DNA of 38,153 bases. Source: an uncultured Flavobacteriales bacterium. GTDB taxonomy: Bacteria > Bacteroidota > Bacteroidia > Flavobacteriales_D > Crocinitomicaceae. The stretch is taken from positions 696,182-734,334 of the forward strand of contig CALSTG010000001.1 of assembly GCA_943789205.1 (NCBI GenBank), written 5' to 3'. A model generated the notes under the pieces. The model was not told where the DNA came from. It made no database searches and was given only the letters and a program-made list of their open reading frames with translations. The position numbers and the translations under genes are program-made. Each line of letters opens with the position of its first letter. The stretch's first letter is position 1. This document shows, one piece after another, positions 11,017 to 17,933 of the stretch.

Positions 11017-14000
11017 ATGAATCTGAAGAGCTTTAATAACTTTTCTTTAGAACATCCAAAGGTTCTCGAAACCTTAAAAGTCATTGAAAGAGCTCAAGCT
11101 AAAATCAATTGGTCAGGAATTGTCGGTTCCTCTAAATCAATTTATGCAGCGGCATGTGCCAGTCAATGCCCGGGTCACCACGTTTTTATACTCGACAACA
11201 AAGAAGACGCCGCCTATTTTTTAAATGATTTACAAGGCCTCTATCCAAATGATAAACGGTTGGTTTTTTATCCTGCATCACACAAATCACCCTACCAAAT
11301 TGAGGATACCGATAACGCGAGTGTTGTAGCAAGAACAGAAGCACTAAAAAAATTAAGTAGTCAAAAGAATTGCTGGGTCGTCACCTACCCTGAGGCATTA
11401 TTCGAAATGGTACTATCGCATAGAAAACTACTATCGAATACAATGAAAATAGAGGTTGACAAAACCTATTCCATTGACTTTATAAATGAGCTGTTATTGG
11501 AGTACAATTTTGAGCAGGTTAATTACGTATATGAACCTGGGCAATATTCCATTCGAGGCGGTATTGTTGATGTTTTTTCGTTTGCTGCAGACACACCATA
11601 TCGAATTGAATTTTTCGGCAATGAAGTAGAATCGATACGTACTTTCGATGCCTCAACTCAGCTCTCAATCAGCAGTCATTCTTTTTTTAGTATTGTACCA
11701 AACATTCAAGGAGCATTGCTTGTAAAAGGTATGGATTCATTTTTTCAATACCTAAAAGGTGAAAAGGTCTTATGGATAGATTCTGTAGAGCGCACTGCTG
11801 CCAGAATTCAAAAAGAATTTGAAAAAGCACAAGTCATCTTCGAAGAACTTGAGCATAAAGAGCAAGTTAGTATTCCAGATCAAATGTTTCTCAATGCTCA
11901 TGCTTGTCTTACCGTTTTTGAGCAAGCAAAAGTTGTAGAGTTCAATAACCTAAAATACTACAACAATTCACAAATTGTAGAATTTGAGCTTAAACCACAA
12001 CCTAGTTTCAATAAAAACTTCGACCTATTAAAAGAAGACCTATTAAAGCATCAGCAAAAGAAATTTATAAATTTTTTGTTTTCAAATCAGCCAAAACAAA
12101 TTGAGCGGCTCTATCAAATATTTGAGGATATTGATGCCGCCGTTGAATTCACTCCTCTTAACACAGCCCTTCATGAAGGTTTCATTTGTAAGGAATCTAA
12201 GATGGTATGCTACACCGATCATCAAATCTTTGAGCGCTATCATAGATTTAGACTAAAAGAAGGTTTCAGGCAAGCAAAACAAGCCCTTACCCTTAAGGAG
12301 ATTTATAATCTTCAAAAAGGTGACTACGTCACTCACATTGATCATGGTGTGGGTCAATTTTCTGGACTTGAAACCATTGATGTTAATGGCAAACCACAAG
12401 AAACGATTCGCTTAATTTATAAAGAGGGTGATGTATTATATGTTGGTATCCATTCTCTACATAGAATATCAAAATTCACAGGTAAGGATGGTTCCGTTCC
12501 AAAGATGAATAAACTGGGAACTCAGACATGGAATACCCTTAAAAATAAGACAAAGAAAAAAATTAAAGAGCTCGCATTTGACCTCATAAAATTATACGCA
12601 AAAAGAAGAAGCCAACCTGGTTTTTCATTTACTCCAGACACCTACCTTCAAAATGAACTTGAAGCTTCTTTCATGTATGAAGACACACCAGACCAATACA
12701 AGGCAACTCAAGATGTCAAAAAGGACATGGAATCTAAAACACCAATGGATAGACTGATTTGCGGGGATGTTGGCTTTGGTAAAACTGAGGTTGCCATACG
12801 TGCTGCATTTAAGTCGGTAGCTGACAGTAAACAGGTTGCCATATTGGTTCCGACCACTATATTATCGCTCCAGCATTTTAGAAGCTTTAAAGAACGACTG
12901 AAGGAGTTTCCGTGCAATATTGATTACATCAATCGCTTCAAAAGCGCTAAGCAAGTCACCGAGACAATAAATAGACTCAAAAATGGGGAAATCGATATTT
13001 TAATTGGCACCCATGCAATTGTATCAAATAGAATCAAGTTTAAAGATCTCGGCCTAATGATTATTGATGAGGAACAAAAGTTTGGCGTATCTGTGAAAGA
13101 CAAACTCAAAACGCTAAGAACAACTGTAGACACGTTAACACTCACCGCAACACCAATCCCGAGAACACTTCAATTCTCCTTAATGGGTGCAAGAGACCTA
13201 AGTATCATCAATACACCTCCTCCAAATAGACAACCCGTCCTTACGGAAATCATAACCTTTAATGAAGAAATACTTCGTGATACAATTTCCTATGAGGTCT
13301 CGCGTGGAGGACAAGTCTTTTTTGTAAATAATAGAATTTCTAACATTAAGGAGATTGCGGGTATGATTCAAAGATTATGTCCAGGAATTAAGGTAGGGAT
13401 TGGACATGGACAAATGGATGGTAAGGTTCTTGAGCGTAACATGATGGATTTTATTGAAGGCAAGTATGATGTGTTAATTGCAACCACTATCATTGAGTCG
13501 GGCATTGATATTTCAAACGCAAATACGATAATCATTAATGATGCTCAAAATTTTGGCTTAAGTGACCTTCATCAACTTCGAGGACGCGTTGGTAGAAGTA
13601 ATAAAAAAGCATTTTGTTATCTAATCGCACCTAAAACTACAGTGCTCACATCAGAAGCGCGGAAAAGACTTGAAGCTTTAGTTCAGTTTTCAGATCTAGG
13701 TTCAGGATTCAATATCGCTATGAAAGATTTAGACATTCGTGGCGCAGGTAATATGCTAGGTGGTGAACAGAGTGGTTTTATTTCTGAGATTGGATTTGAA
13801 ATGTATCAAAAAATCTTAAATGAAGCCATGAAAGAGCTTCGAGAAAAAGAATTTAAAGAGCTTTTTAATGAACGGACAAGTGACCAGCTCACAACCTATG
13901 CCTCTGAATGTGTATTTGAGACAGACTACGAGGTTCGCATTCCTGACGATTATGTAAATGATGTAGCTGAAAGACTCAGCCTTTATCAAGAACTGGATAA

Positions 14001-14361
14001 CATTGAGAATATTGAGGAATTAAATGCTTTTGGTGTTCGATTAAAAGATCGTTTTGGGCCAATCCCAAAACAAGTAGAAGAGCTCTTTTTTTCTTTTGAA
14101 TTGCGCTGGATGGCAAAAAAGATGGGGCTGGAACGTTTAGTTATTAAGTCTGAAAAGATGGTATGTTCCTTTATCTCTGATACAGATTCTTCATTCTATA
14201 AATCTGAATTGTTTACAGAGATTTTAGAACAAATAACCAACCAAGGTAAAGGCTACAGGTTAATTCAAAAGCAAGAAAAGTTGAGACTGATCATAGAACC
14301 AATTGCAGATATACGTGAAGCATCAGCAAAACTTGAGATCTTGCATAAAAAAAAGAGCTAA
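11017..14361 (+). CDS. mfd: Transcription-repair coupling factor Mfd
   Basis: 1114 residues, close to the family norm. Mfd removes RNA polymerase stalled at DNA lesions and recruits UvrA. Domains in order: a UvrB-like N-terminal module (about 1-350, including YEPGQYSIRGGIVDVFSFAA); the RNA-polymerase-interacting CarD-like domain about 430-490 (LQKGDYVTHIDHGVGQFSG); the RecG-like translocase with Walker A GDVGFGKT at 583-590, DEEQ box at 684-687 and motif VI QLRGRVGRS near 853; DIRGAGNMLGGEQSG near 905; and the C-terminal TRCF regulatory domain to the end. The gene starts one base after fbp. It ends 4 bases before the convergent lipoprotein gene, with no terminator hairpin between them. Confidence 0.97.
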   Translation: MNLKSFNNFSLEHPKVLETLKVIERAQAKINWSGIVGSSKSIYAAACASQCPGHHVFILDNKEDAAYFLNDLQGLYPNDKRLVFYPASHKSPYQIEDTDNASVVARTEALKKLSSQKNCWVVTYPEALFEMVLSHRKLLSNTMKIEVDKTYSIDFINELLLEYNFEQVNYVYEPGQYSIRGGIVDVFSFAADTPYRIEFFGNEVESIRTFDASTQLSISSHSFFSIVPNIQGALLVKGMDSFFQYLKGEKVLWIDSVERTAARIQKEFEKAQVIFEELEHKEQVSIPDQMFLNAHACLTVFEQAKVVEFNNLKYYNNSQIVEFELKPQPSFNKNFDLLKEDLLKHQQKKFINFLFSNQPKQIERLYQIFEDIDAAVEFTPLNTALHEGFICKESKMVCYTDHQIFERYHRFRLKEGFRQAKQALTLKEIYNLQKGDYVTHIDHGVGQFSGLETIDVNGKPQETIRLIYKEGDVLYVGIHSLHRISKFTGKDGSVPKMNKLGTQTWNTLKNKTKKKIKELAFDLIKLYAKRRSQPGFSFTPDTYLQNELEASFMYEDTPDQYKATQDVKKDMESKTPMDRLICGDVGFGKTEVAIRAAFKSVADSKQVAILVPTTILSLQHFRSFKERLKEFPCNIDYINRFKSAKQVTETINRLKNGEIDILIGTHAIVSNRIKFKDLGLMIIDEEQKFGVSVKDKLKTLRTTVDTLTLTATPIPRTLQFSLMGARDLSIINTPPPNRQPVLTEIITFNEEILRDTISYEVSRGGQVFFVNNRISNIKEIAGMIQRLCPGIKVGIGHGQMDGKVLERNMMDFIEGKYDVLIATTIIESGIDISNANTIIINDAQNFGLSDLHQLRGRVGRSNKKAFCYLIAPKTTVLTSEARKRLEALVQFSDLGSGFNIAMKDLDIRGAGNMLGGEQSGFISEIGFEMYQKILNEAMKELREKEFKELFNERTSDQLTTYASECVFETDYEVRIPDDYVNDVAERLSLYQELDNIENIEELNAFGVRLKDRFGPIPKQVEELFFSFELRWMAKKMGLERLVIKSEKMVCSFISDTDSSFYKSELFTEILEQITNQGKGYRLIQKQEKLRLIIEPIADIREASAKLEILHKKKS

Positions 14362-14365
14362 CTCA

Positions 14366-14845
14366 TTAATTGTAATCCGGACCAATATATTCAAGACATG
14401 GATATAGATTTGTGTAACATCTATTCTTGAGTCTGAGCTCAAATTTAACGGAATCATTTTCTACTTCAAATGTCCCATCAGCAATACCTTTCCAATCTTT
14501 AACACATGTATCTCCGATGAATTTATAAAGATTACGATTTAAATTAAGAAGTGTTTTTTTTATAGTCTCTAAATCTTGCGACTTTTCCATTTGATACCAA
14601 TTGTAAGTGCCTTTTGCTAATTTCACAGTTGCTCTTCCGCTTTCATCAAGCGCAACTAAAATAGAATCTCTAGCACCAACAATAATCACCTGGCCATCAA
14701 AAGGAGATAAGTTAACTACCTCAATAGATTGAGGCGGCGCTCCTCCACAGTGAGACGCTTCAACGGAGACAAGAAACTTGATAGGTGACATGCAACCAAC
14801 AAGAGAAACTAAACTCAGCGATAAAAAGCATATTATTTGTTTCAT
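14366..14845 (-). CDS. Hypothetical lipoprotein
   Basis: 159 residues. A lipoprotein signal peptide (MKQIICFLSLSLVSLVGC) has a lipobox LVGC with the acylated cysteine at 18. The mature part has a short beta-rich region resembling a peptidase-regulatory fold (VVNLSPFDGQVIIVGARDSI, ATVKLAKGTYNWYQM), then a charged helical stretch and a Cys-containing end (CVKDW, CYTNLYPCLEYIG). I do not recognise the family. Its ATG overlaps the stop of the DXR-like gene (ATGA), so the two are translationally coupled, but this does not reveal a function. Confidence 0.75.
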   Translation of the reverse strand: MKQIICFLSLSLVSLVGCMSPIKFLVSVEASHCGGAPPQSIEVVNLSPFDGQVIIVGARDSILVALDESGRATVKLAKGTYNWYQMEKSQDLETIKKTLLNLNRNLYKFIGDTCVKDWKGIADGTFEVENDSVKFELRLKNRCYTNLYPCLEYIGPDYN

Positions 14846-15993
14846 TTGATCAATTTTAAAGTTTGTTCACAAGCAGTATGGTAGGTATTCATAAAATCAT
14901 CATAGCTTGGATTTGTTATGGTGTTATGCCCATTAAGCATCGTCTCATTGATTGATGCAATCTCCGTGAATTTTATTTGATCTTCAAGAAAAGCCTCGAC
15001 TGCAATCTTATTTGATGCATTCAAAACAGCAGAAAAAGCCCCTCCTTTTTCCAAAACTGAATATGCATGATTCAAATTTGGAAAATTTGTTTTATCAGGT
15101 TGCTTAAAAGAAAAATTAGGTTCGTCAAATAAATTGATGCGTGGTACGGAAACATCCATCCGATTCGGATAGCTCATAGCAAACTGTATAGAACGCATTA
15201 AATTAGAGGCGTCCATCTGTGCCTTTATACTGCCATCTGCAAATTCCACCAGTCCATTAATAACAAGAGGGTTATGAATTACAAGGTCAATTTGTTCAGG
15301 TTTCAAACCAAACAACCACCTTGCTTCAATCAGCTTAAAGCTATCATGAATCAATGTTGCAGTATTGACAAGATCATAAACATTTGACGTTCCTTTATTT
15401 ATTATTTTTTCTGCTGAAATTTCATTTAACTGCGCAACCGTGAATCCTTCAAATTGACCTCCTGAAGAAGTCAAATACAGCTTCTGTATTTTATTATGAA
15501 ACTCCCCCAACATACTTTGGAAAATTGAAGAATGACTCGGGTCGACAGGATAGATATTAACTCCATTTTGCTCAGCAAGTCCAGTTATAAGACTTCCACA
15601 TATAACAAGTGACTCCTTATTTGCAAGTGCAATTTGCTTGCGCGTATGAATTGCAGCAATTGTTGGTGCTATTCCTGCAATCCCTTTGATTGCATTAAAG
15701 ACCAAATCAATATGTTGTGATTCAAGAACCTGACAAACTGCTGCTGCTCCGGTGTAAACATGAATATCTTCTTTCCAAAGAGCCTCAGAAACCTTTTTAT
15801 ATAGGGCCTTATTTTCAATTACCACGGTGTTAGGGAGTAATCTCAGGGACTGTTCAATTAATAGTTCGGCATTTGATGCTGCCGTCAGTACCTCAACTTC
15901 AAAATCATCCGGTAAGGAGGTCGCGATATTTAAAGCGGCTATTCCAATAGAGCCTGTAGAACCAAGAATAGCAATACCTTTTTTATTTGACAT
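14842..15993 (-). CDS. dxr: 1-deoxy-D-xylulose-5-phosphate reductoisomerase (DXR) homologue with a degenerate active site
   Basis: 383 residues, normal DXR length. DXR makes 2-C-methylerythritol 4-phosphate in the non-mevalonate isoprenoid pathway. The NADPH half is well kept: GSTGSIG at 11-17, NAIKGIAGIAPT at 100-111 and LANKESLV at 123-130. The catalytic half is not. Against E. coli DXR, the metal ligands D150/E152/E231 become D151, S153 (PVDPSHSSIF) and K220. The N227-K228 pair becomes H216-D217, and the HPNW substrate motif is absent. The flanks resume with LIEARWLFGLKPEQID at 221-236 and a normal C-terminal domain. Other frames in this stretch hit stops, so a hidden frameshift does not explain it. 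Probably inactive as a DXR, or with another function. It may be translated with the following lipoprotein. Confidence 0.85.
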   Translation of the reverse strand: MSNKKGIAILGSTGSIGIAALNIATSLPDDFEVEVLTAASNAELLIEQSLRLLPNTVVIENKALYKKVSEALWKEDIHVYTGAAAVCQVLESQHIDLVFNAIKGIAGIAPTIAAIHTRKQIALANKESLVICGSLITGLAEQNGVNIYPVDPSHSSIFQSMLGEFHNKIQKLYLTSSGGQFEGFTVAQLNEISAEKIINKGTSNVYDLVNTATLIHDSFKLIEARWLFGLKPEQIDLVIHNPLVINGLVEFADGSIKAQMDASNLMRSIQFAMSYPNRMDVSVPRINLFDEPNFSFKQPDKTNFPNLNHAYSVLEKGGAFSAVLNASNKIAVEAFLEDQIKFTEIASINETMLNGHNTITNPSYDDFMNTYHTACEQTLKLIK

Positions 15994-16014: not shown

Positions 16015-16683
16015 TCACTTTAATGCGCCTAACGAACTCTTTTTAAAGATCGAAAGCAATCCAGAAACAATTAAATATTGGGCCAATAAATAAGTACACA
16101 TCACCCAAAATTTTGCATATTCAAAATCATCAATAAACAACCTTATAGAAAGTAAAGAATCTGAACAAACAAAACTCAATGCACCAAGAATAATCAAAAT
16201 AGAACCTTTGGACTTATTTACGCGGAGCAATAACATCGAGACCCATAACATTACACATATCGTCGTGGCATAAATCAGCACTGGAACTTTCATCCCCTCA
16301 AGGTTCGGCCATAAATATTTTAACAAAATAACTTCATAAATAAGAAGCCCAAAAAGCAAGTAGGTATATACTCCTTTCACAAAAACAGGTTTAGTCAGCT
16401 CATAAAAAATACTTATAAAAGCGAGATGAGCAATTAGGAATGAAGACAAACCAAGGATGAAGAATAGACTTCCTGCACTCATAAGAAAAACATCTCCCAG
16501 TGTAGAAAAAAACAAGGCTATTAAAAGCTTTTTATTTAAGTATTTAAAATCGGTAACACTAAATAAAAGTAATAACGAAGGCACCAAAAAAGGTTTAAAA
16601 TAAAAAGCAATATCCGTAAATTCTAAAAGAACAAGCAGCAGGTAAAAGATGAAAAACAGCCTAATAAACCAACGACCAATCAT
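16015..16683 (-). CDS. YhhN/TMEM86 family lysoplasmalogenase
   Basis: 222 residues, an integral membrane protein with about eight helices. The family pattern is visible: FKPFLVPSL near residue 30, ALFFSTLGDVFLM near 56-68 with the conserved Asp, and FILGLSSFLIAHLAFI near 75-90 with the conserved His. TMEM86B and its bacterial relatives hydrolyse the vinyl-ether bond of lysoplasmalogens, releasing an aldehyde and a glycerophospholipid. Its start overlaps the stop of the alkylglycerol-monooxygenase-like gene by 4 bases, so the two probably act on related ether lipids. The DXR homologue follows after 21 bases. Confidence 0.85.
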   Translation of the reverse strand: MIGRWFIRLFFIFYLLLVLLEFTDIAFYFKPFLVPSLLLLFSVTDFKYLNKKLLIALFFSTLGDVFLMSAGSLFFILGLSSFLIAHLAFISIFYELTKPVFVKGVYTYLLFGLLIYEVILLKYLWPNLEGMKVPVLIYATTICVMLWVSMLLLRVNKSKGSILIILGALSFVCSDSLLSIRLFIDDFEYAKFWVMCTYLLAQYLIVSGLLSIFKKSSLGALK

Positions 16684-17933
16684 TTAAAGGCGATAACTGC
16701 GTTGTTCTGACCGTCAGACCTATAAACAGAAAATGAAAAAAAGAATGCTATGCAGTGATAGCCTATAATAAAGGGCAAAATATTATGACCGAACCAATCT
16801 CCTGTCCAAACAAATATTAAAGACGTAGCAATCACTCGAAGCATTTCGATAATAAAATTCCACTTATGCTTATCCATTAAGTCAGTTAATGCGTAAATCG
16901 TTAGGAAAACATAAGAACCATAGGCCAAAATCTCATAAAAGCTCAAAGAACCAAGCCTTGCAAAAAGGTCCAATAAAAAAAACATAACAACAAACAAATG
17001 AGCGATACTCCAATACAACTCTGCTCTTGTCAAAACTGGTTTATATTTAGAAAAAGCGTATACATCTTCTATTTTTTTTATCGGATAGCTTTTGTCAAAG
17101 CCCTCTGGTCTCCATCCTGTTGGTCTAAACCAAATGGTCAGCTTATCAATGATTTTATGCGATCGCCAAGCATCCTGGATTAGAATAAATAAATGCTGAA
17201 AATTAATCTTGAATGGATTTCTCGTGTTAGCGGGTCTCGATATTCCATATACTGGAGGAACTTCATCCAACTCTTCTTGAAAGGTTCCAAAAATAAAATC
17301 CCAAAATATAAAAATTTGACTCAGGTTCTTATCTAAATACTCTGGGTTTATAGCATGATGAACGCGATGGTGCGAAGGAGTGACTAATATATATTCTATG
17401 ATTCCTAGCTTTCCAATATGTCTGGTATGGTACCAAAACTGCATAAATAAATGCAAAGGAAGTACAATAGATATTACCTCAGGAGGAACCCCCATGATAG
17501 CAGCAGGTATGAGCAAAAATGTAAAAAACTTAACAATTCCAGAGATTGGCTGTCTTAAAGCACATGCCAAATTAAACTCCTCACTACTATGATGGATCAC
17601 GTGCTGATTCCAAAAGAAATTAAGCTTGTGAGAAAACCTATGAGACCAATAACCATAAAAGTCAATAACAATAAAAGCAACTGCATAAACGATAAAACTA
17701 TTCTCTATCGTAAATAAAGCGAGCTTTCCATAAAACCATTGATAAGAAACTATACCAATTGACAATCCCATAACATCTCTTAAAACGTTTGTCATACCAG
17801 AACTTAAGCTAGATACAGCATCATCAAGAGGTACCGTATCATCATCTTTCCAATAACCATAAAGCTTTTCAAGAACTACAAGTACCAAAAATGCTGGCAT
17901 TGCAATAAGTAGTATTTTCCCGTATTCAACCAT
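16680..17933 (-). CDS. Sterol desaturase/fatty-acid hydroxylase family membrane protein, alkylglycerol monooxygenase-like
   Basis: 417 residues with several transmembrane helices and the eight-histidine di-iron site of the fatty acid hydroxylase superfamily: HRFSH at 98-102, HVIHH at 111-115, and SHHRVHH at 187-193, with further His in WYHTRH (167-172). Features typical of animal alkylglycerol monooxygenase (AGMO/TMEM195) are also present: HHSSEEFNLACALRQ, QFWYHT, and TPSHHRVHH followed by DKN and IFIFWDFIFGTF. AGMO cleaves the ether bond of alkylglycerols using tetrahydrobiopterin. The C-terminal 130 residues add extra membrane helices. The activity is inferred; a generic lipid or carotenoid hydroxylase cannot be excluded. 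The next gene, YhhN, overlaps its stop. Confidence 0.85.
   Translation of the reverse strand: MVEYGKILLIAMPAFLVLVVLEKLYGYWKDDDTVPLDDAVSSLSSGMTNVLRDVMGLSIGIVSYQWFYGKLALFTIENSFIVYAVAFIVIDFYGYWSHRFSHKLNFFWNQHVIHHSSEEFNLACALRQPISGIVKFFTFLLIPAAIMGVPPEVISIVLPLHLFMQFWYHTRHIGKLGIIEYILVTPSHHRVHHAINPEYLDKNLSQIFIFWDFIFGTFQEELDEVPPVYGISRPANTRNPFKINFQHLFILIQDAWRSHKIIDKLTIWFRPTGWRPEGFDKSYPIKKIEDVYAFSKYKPVLTRAELYWSIAHLFVVMFFLLDLFARLGSLSFYEILAYGSYVFLTIYALTDLMDKHKWNFIIEMLRVIATSLIFVWTGDWFGHNILPFIIGYHCIAFFFSFSVYRSDGQNNAVIAFK

Follow-up and report, generated by a model that had tools for sequence, protein, structure and literature searches.

The window, meaning the whole stretch of 38,153 nucleotides analysed here, comes from an uncultured Flavobacteriales bacterium (genome G000; 2.59 Mb, 94.85% complete) and carries a dxr-like gene in a neighbourhood that includes a predicted lipoprotein gene and a convergent gene named mfd from its sequence (Table 1). 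The open reading frame at 14842-15993 gives the only PF02670 match in G000, and no second, canonical dxr was found in this genome. The encoded protein resembles DXR / IspC (TIGR00243; PF02670, PF08436, PF13288) in its full-length homology, gene position, predicted fold and three Pfam domains, all of which score above their cut-offs (131.2 against 21.7 bits, 51.8 against 26 and 92.8 against 27, respectively). It differs from DXR / IspC in scoring below the cut-offs of the NCBIfam equivalog model TIGR00243 (306.6 against 315.7 bits) and of NF009114 (335.9 against 461), in having lost metal, substrate and flap residues, and in residing in a genome in which ispF, ispG and ispH were not found.

Table 1. 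Features of the dxr locus, with positions in the window.
Feature	Position	Strand	Basis
Degenerate dxr orthologue, 383-aa predicted DXR pseudoenzyme	14842..15993	-	ATG start; open frame; PF02670 and residue comparison
Predicted NADPH-binding domain, codons 1-150; most constrained part in post-inactivation pairs	15544..15993	-	PF02670 match 7-133; dN/dS by region
LGSTGSIG glycine-rich NADPH motif, codons 10-17	15943..15966	-	G8, T10, G11 and G14 kept in 11/11 strongly degenerate representatives
VDPSH, codons 150-154, replacing the metal-ligand motif VDSEH	15532..15546	-	Alignment with E. coli DXR
Substrate flap and NKG..E motif, codons 198-223; residues replaced, 2-residue gap	15325..15402	-	Alignment
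Catalytic region, codons 151-275, relaxed	15169..15543	-	Region-wise selection analysis
C-terminal region, codons 276-383, predicted helical domain	14845..15168	-	AlphaFold model; PF13288 match 266-373
Stretch missing from sister G032, 1071 bp (357 codons)	14860..15930	.	G032 retains a 26-codon in-frame remnant
ATGA, 4-bp overlap of dxr stop with lipoprotein start	14842..14845	-	In 10/10 examined genomes having both genes, and in G032
Predicted lipoprotein, 159 aa	14366..14845	-	No Pfam or NCBIfam match
YhhN-family membrane protein, neighbour	16015..16683	-	Domain match
Fatty-acid-hydroxylase-family protein, neighbour	16680..17933	-	Domain match
mfd, convergent neighbour, basis of the species tree	11017..14361	+	Name from sequence

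Canonical relatives (G068, G073, G090) carry dxr in the same neighbourhood, next to the lipoprotein gene and mfd. Since this matches the surroundings of the canonical dxr of the nearest relatives, the window frame is the dxr orthologue; a paralogous origin was ruled out by the single genome match together with the conserved neighbourhood. The same adjacency holds in seven of the eight genomes with a degenerate dxr, the contig of the eighth (G088) ending after dxr.

Residues were numbered after E. coli DXR, aligned with the window protein and its relatives, and we scored twelve that we chose as key, some of them drawn from papers (K125, D150, E152, S186, H209, N211, W212, S222, N227, K228, E231 and H257). 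Nine are changed in the window protein (E152S, H209K, N211T, W212S, S222T, N227H, K228D, E231K and H257N), leaving K125 (K126 in its own numbering), D150 (D151) and S186 unchanged. D150 is thus the only one retained of D150, E152 and E231, which we take to be the DXR metal ligands, and among the substrate residues S186, S222, N227 and K228, the flap residue W212 and H257, only S186 remains. For the Staphylococcus schleiferi enzyme, PMC7297381 names the equivalents of S186, S222, N227, K228, W212 and the catalytic His, and PMC9782300 names S186, S222, N227, K228 and W212 as DXR residues. With most of its catalytic residues changed, the window protein is predicted to lack DXR activity. The initial annotation had claimed that most of the active site is lost, citing E152 (S153), N227 (H216), K228 (D217), E231 (K220) and the missing HPNW alongside the retained K125 and D150, and our alignment bears out each of these assignments. 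Two of its details do not hold: the 24-residue stretch described as wholly replaced still reads NTATLI where E. coli has DSATMM, so that A-T remain, and our alignment, unlike the gapless one described there, has a 2-residue gap, which is shared with G025.

A frameshift origin of the altered stretch was rejected, as the reading frame is in register on both of its flanks and the changes are graded among relatives. Shuffling of the metal site was rejected as well, no replacement common to the lineages being seen. Nor is the altered stretch an assembly error of the window contig, an outcome that the initial annotation had named as refuting its reading: the same losses occur in two clusters of 99%-identical proteins (7 and 37 member sequences), and relatives carry different losses at the same sites. 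All six strongly degenerate genomes (6/6) combine changes at N227 and K228 (the phosphate-binding residues), at the flap Trp and at the catalytic His; in G060, the Trp is deleted. The DXR proteins of G088 and G089 show three and five changes among the twelve residues and, judged from these residues, may not be fully dead.

A survey of the genus returned a DXR match in 77 of 86 genomes, comprising 67 canonical proteins, eight degenerate ones (G000, G025, G026, G060, G088, G089, G091 and G092) and two C-terminal fragments only, so that the active site was read in 75. A wider set of 220 proteins, excluding the E. coli reference, was assembled from the loci and from two homology searches, taking the best 120 of 8000 scored proteins in each. 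Among the proteins listed, 182 had no change at the twelve residues, 38 had at least three and none had one or two, a distribution that speaks against chance changes. The 38 proteins fall into 15 clusters at 90% identity, and the frames are open throughout these clusters and the eight degenerate genomes. Pocket replacements differ by sublineage, and in one sublineage (G060 [L069] and the 364-aa proteins P0123 and P0124) the flap is deleted outright with the frame kept. In the dxr gene of G025 (L003), a run of 17 A at codons ~134-142 reads RKKKKK, where its 90%-cluster homologue P0003 reads SLAEQ; this stretch is possibly an assembly error. Second DXR matches were seen as short C-terminal pieces in G021, G060 (adjoining a second mfd) and G081, and as a full-length canonical protein in G014, and probably reflect strain mixture in these assemblies.

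To place these genomes, we inferred a tree from Mfd (28 genomes, 3 with partial Mfd). The resulting tree sets G000, G032, G025, G060, G026, G018, G092 and G089 apart from the rest with support 100, and groups G091 with canonical relatives, also with support 100. G088, which has no full-length Mfd match, joins G089 in the DXR tree (support 96), in which the placement of G091 is weak (support 52). We refer to the eight genomes split off in the Mfd tree plus G088 as the mevalonate clade. The substitutions T99N and L230F are found in the strongly degenerate proteins of this clade and also in G091, whose position in the Mfd tree is outside the clade; no other new pocket motif common to the strongly degenerate proteins was found.

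Two of the nine genomes in the mevalonate clade, G032 and G018, have lost dxr. G032, with an Mfd sharing 97% identity with that of the window, is colinear with the window except for a clean, in-frame deletion, and the 26-codon remnant keeps a start and a stop that overlaps the lipoprotein start. In G018, ~80 bp separate the hydroxylase gene from the lipoprotein gene that follows it, and dxr is missing. These losses indicate that the role of dxr is dispensable in both genomes.

In an analysis of isoprenoid gene content, IspF and IspG were found in none of the eight degenerate genomes (0/8 each) and in none of the nine genomes of the mevalonate clade (0/9 each), while IspF was found in 12 of 12 canonical-DXR genomes tested. 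IspH was found in none of the seven mevalonate-clade genomes tested, but the same model (PF02401) likewise gave no match in G012 and G020, in both of which IspF and IspG were found. HMG-CoA reductase (HMGR) was detected in 6/8 degenerate genomes and its short type in 8/9 mevalonate-clade genomes, and the same proportions (6/8 and 8/9) hold for a MvaD-like gene. The latter call rests on matches to TIGR01240 that fall under the cut-off in all 10 genomes matched, and on Pfam MVD-like_N and MDD_C matches over the cut-off in G000. The genome of the window thus has mevalonate-type genes, and in G000, G025, G026, G018 and G032 HMGR and the MvaD-like gene are clustered with GHMP kinase and UbiA-like genes. 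Between G000 and G025, HMGR is 97.6% identical and DXR 60%. The searches for HMGR and MvaD gave no match in G088 (85% complete), and those for IspF, IspG, HMGR and MvaD gave none in G091 (67% complete), whose canonical sister G030 (68% complete) also yielded no IspG. DXS is present in 9/9 mevalonate-clade genomes, a retention that is expected for thiamine and vitamin B6.

To examine selection on dxr after the loss of its active site, we estimated dN/dS with our own pairwise codon model, leaving pairs with saturated dS out of the omega estimates (e.g. G000-G026, dS 12.6). The genes of G026 and G060 have in common the change K125T and losses at E152, N227, K228, E231 and H257; inactivation should therefore predate most of the divergence between them. 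For this pair, dN/dS is 0.167 at dS 0.44 (2dlnL against 1 = 80), well below 1, and simulation of neutral evolution over the same distance gave a mean of 10.7 stop codons with none of 500 runs stop-free, compared to zero stops observed. The values for G026-G092 and G060-G092 are 0.137 and 0.113 (dS 1.4-1.6), and omega across pairs within degenerate sublineages spans 0.05-0.17, or 0.11-0.17 at usable dS. The corresponding value for mfd in G026-G060 is 0.033 and that for canonical dxr in G073-G090 is 0.045; within the same degenerate pairs, dN/dS of dxr is 3-5 times that of mfd. A pseudogene would be marked by a broken frame or a dN/dS near 1, and the window dxr shows neither.

The constraint is unevenly spread along the gene. 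A two-omega fit, with dS in common and one omega each for the N-terminal domain (1-150) and the rest, returned 0.070/0.243 (p = 1.1e-4), 0.081/0.181 (p = 2.7e-5) and 0.075/0.145 (p = 0.001) for three degenerate pairs, 0.043/0.087 (p = 2.8e-5) for G000-G025 and 0.038/0.063 (p = 0.018) for G088-G089. The order is reversed in the single canonical control pair, G073-G090 (0.099/0.014). Separate fits by region also gave the opposite order for G000-G025 (0.103 for the N-terminal domain, then 0.043 and 0.023), with dS saturated outside the N-terminal domain. Protein identities point in the same direction as the joint fit: over the N-terminal, catalytic and C-terminal regions they are 0.82/0.69/0.70 for 20 degenerate pairs, compared with 0.80/0.89/0.62 for 600 canonical pairs at 70-80% identity. 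Purifying selection on dxr thus continues after inactivation and is strongest on the N-terminal domain.

Consistent with the initial annotation, which had the NADPH fold as kept, the window protein contains LGSTGSIG and its PF02670 match is over the cut-off. We counted retention at 217 positions nearly invariant in canonical proteins across 11 strongly degenerate representatives, taking 10 positions as presumed NADPH sites. Mean retention was 0.85 for these 10 positions, 0.31 for 22 catalytic positions and 0.72 for the 185 others. The catalytic-site deficit lies beyond all 20,000 permutations, and the NADPH-site excess over background is suggestive only (permutation P 0.062), its weakness being due mostly to the replacement of L101 by I. 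AlphaFold predicts a DXR fold both for the window protein (pLDDT 91.8, pTM 0.91) and for the flap-less 364-aa P0124 (pLDDT 90.3, pTM 0.89). The best fold matches of the window model are DXR proteins (TM 0.94), the solved structures including the NADPH complex 1r0l.

Taken together, these data lead us to consider it, on balance, probable that the window gene, the vertically inherited dxr of its lineage, encodes a pseudoenzyme derived from DXR that was retained when the mevalonate pathway replaced the MEP pathway and that now has a role without catalysis, probably in NADPH binding. The lineage would have taken up or kept mevalonate genes and lost the later MEP genes, which would have freed DXR from catalysis; its catalysis would then have been lost, and its fold and N-terminal domain would have stayed under selection. 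Losing catalysis may itself have been favoured because, as DXS remains, an active DXR would consume NADPH and draw DXP off into an intermediate of no use to the cell. The window protein would still bind NADPH, probably as a dimer, and might act by binding, for instance as an NADPH-responsive partner of another protein. We put forward more tentatively, as a possibility, the fuller scenario in which DXR became a non-catalytic NADPH-binding regulator after the pathway switch, had its flap deleted in one sublineage and followed the same course a second time in G091.

The main rival, which we regard as unlikely, is a slowly decaying relic that serves no function itself; its frame would be maintained because its translation feeds the overlapping lipoprotein gene and because misfolded protein does harm. 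The ATGA overlap, present in 10/10 examined genomes with both genes, speaks for it, as do the raised dN/dS and the loss of dxr in G018 and G032, and the in-frame excision in G032, which spared the start, 26 codons and the overlap, is well explained by it. Yet coupling would hold the frame and not the amino acids, and dN/dS is 0.11-0.17 with an N-terminal domain at about canonical constraint; frames are, moreover, open in eight genomes and 15 clusters, and G018 has kept the lipoprotein with dxr gone. Coupling as the sole reason for the retention of dxr is ruled out by this G018 arrangement and by the amino-acid constraint. Neither can the coupled lipoprotein be counted in favour of repurposing, as the initial annotation had done, since canonical relatives have the overlap as well and the lipoprotein outlasts dxr. 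The broader proposal made there, of a repurposed NADPH-binding protein rather than decay, stands in part: the active site is lost, the NADPH motif is kept and selection on the protein continues, but the gene is dispensable in G032 and G018.

A kept NADPH motif, an altered pocket and a constrained sequence would also suit a new NADPH oxidoreductase acting on another substrate in the remodelled pocket. The pocket replacements differ by sublineage, however, with P0123, P0124 and G060 lacking the flap and nothing beyond T99N and L230F held in common, which makes this reading distinctly improbable. A still-active DXR with unusual residues, to which K125 and D150 in the window protein and the mere three changes in G088 might point, or a sequence error, is extremely improbable given the joint change of phosphate-binding, flap and catalytic residues, the later pathway genes that were not found and the identical losses in independent clusters.

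The pseudoenzyme that we favour has parallels in known systems. Pseudoenzymes in general have lost catalytic residues and kept their fold and sequence constraint; the window protein likewise lacks catalytic residues and is constrained, and its fold is predicted to be kept. The nearest parallel, according to PMC11192765, is Listeria innocua, a mevalonate user that retains upstream MEP genes as a truncated pathway up to MEcDP and regains full function once the missing steps are added; in contrast, the DXR active site itself is lost here. DXR-II / DRL, given in PMC3847144 as a family distinct from DXR-I with DXR activity, is similar in being a DXR-related protein of lineages with unusual isoprenoid gene sets. 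All matches of the window protein, in contrast, are to DXR-I. Our search of the open-access literature turned up neither a degenerate DXR described from mevalonate bacteria nor a pseudoenzyme derived from DXR.

Sister species carry the same gene, at one place, in intact, degenerate, flap-deleted or excised form, which makes the locus a natural test of what purpose an enzyme serves after another pathway has taken over. Should the protein indeed bind NADPH and catalyse nothing, a second role of DXR, which is a target of drugs and herbicides, would have been masked by the catalytic one. The locus also carries a warning for annotation, as domain models label the gene DXR and such genomes would be credited with a partial MEP pathway. 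Within the same genus, G002, G071 and G101 encode an HMGR domain within open frames of ~770-790 aa, alongside IspF and a canonical dxr.
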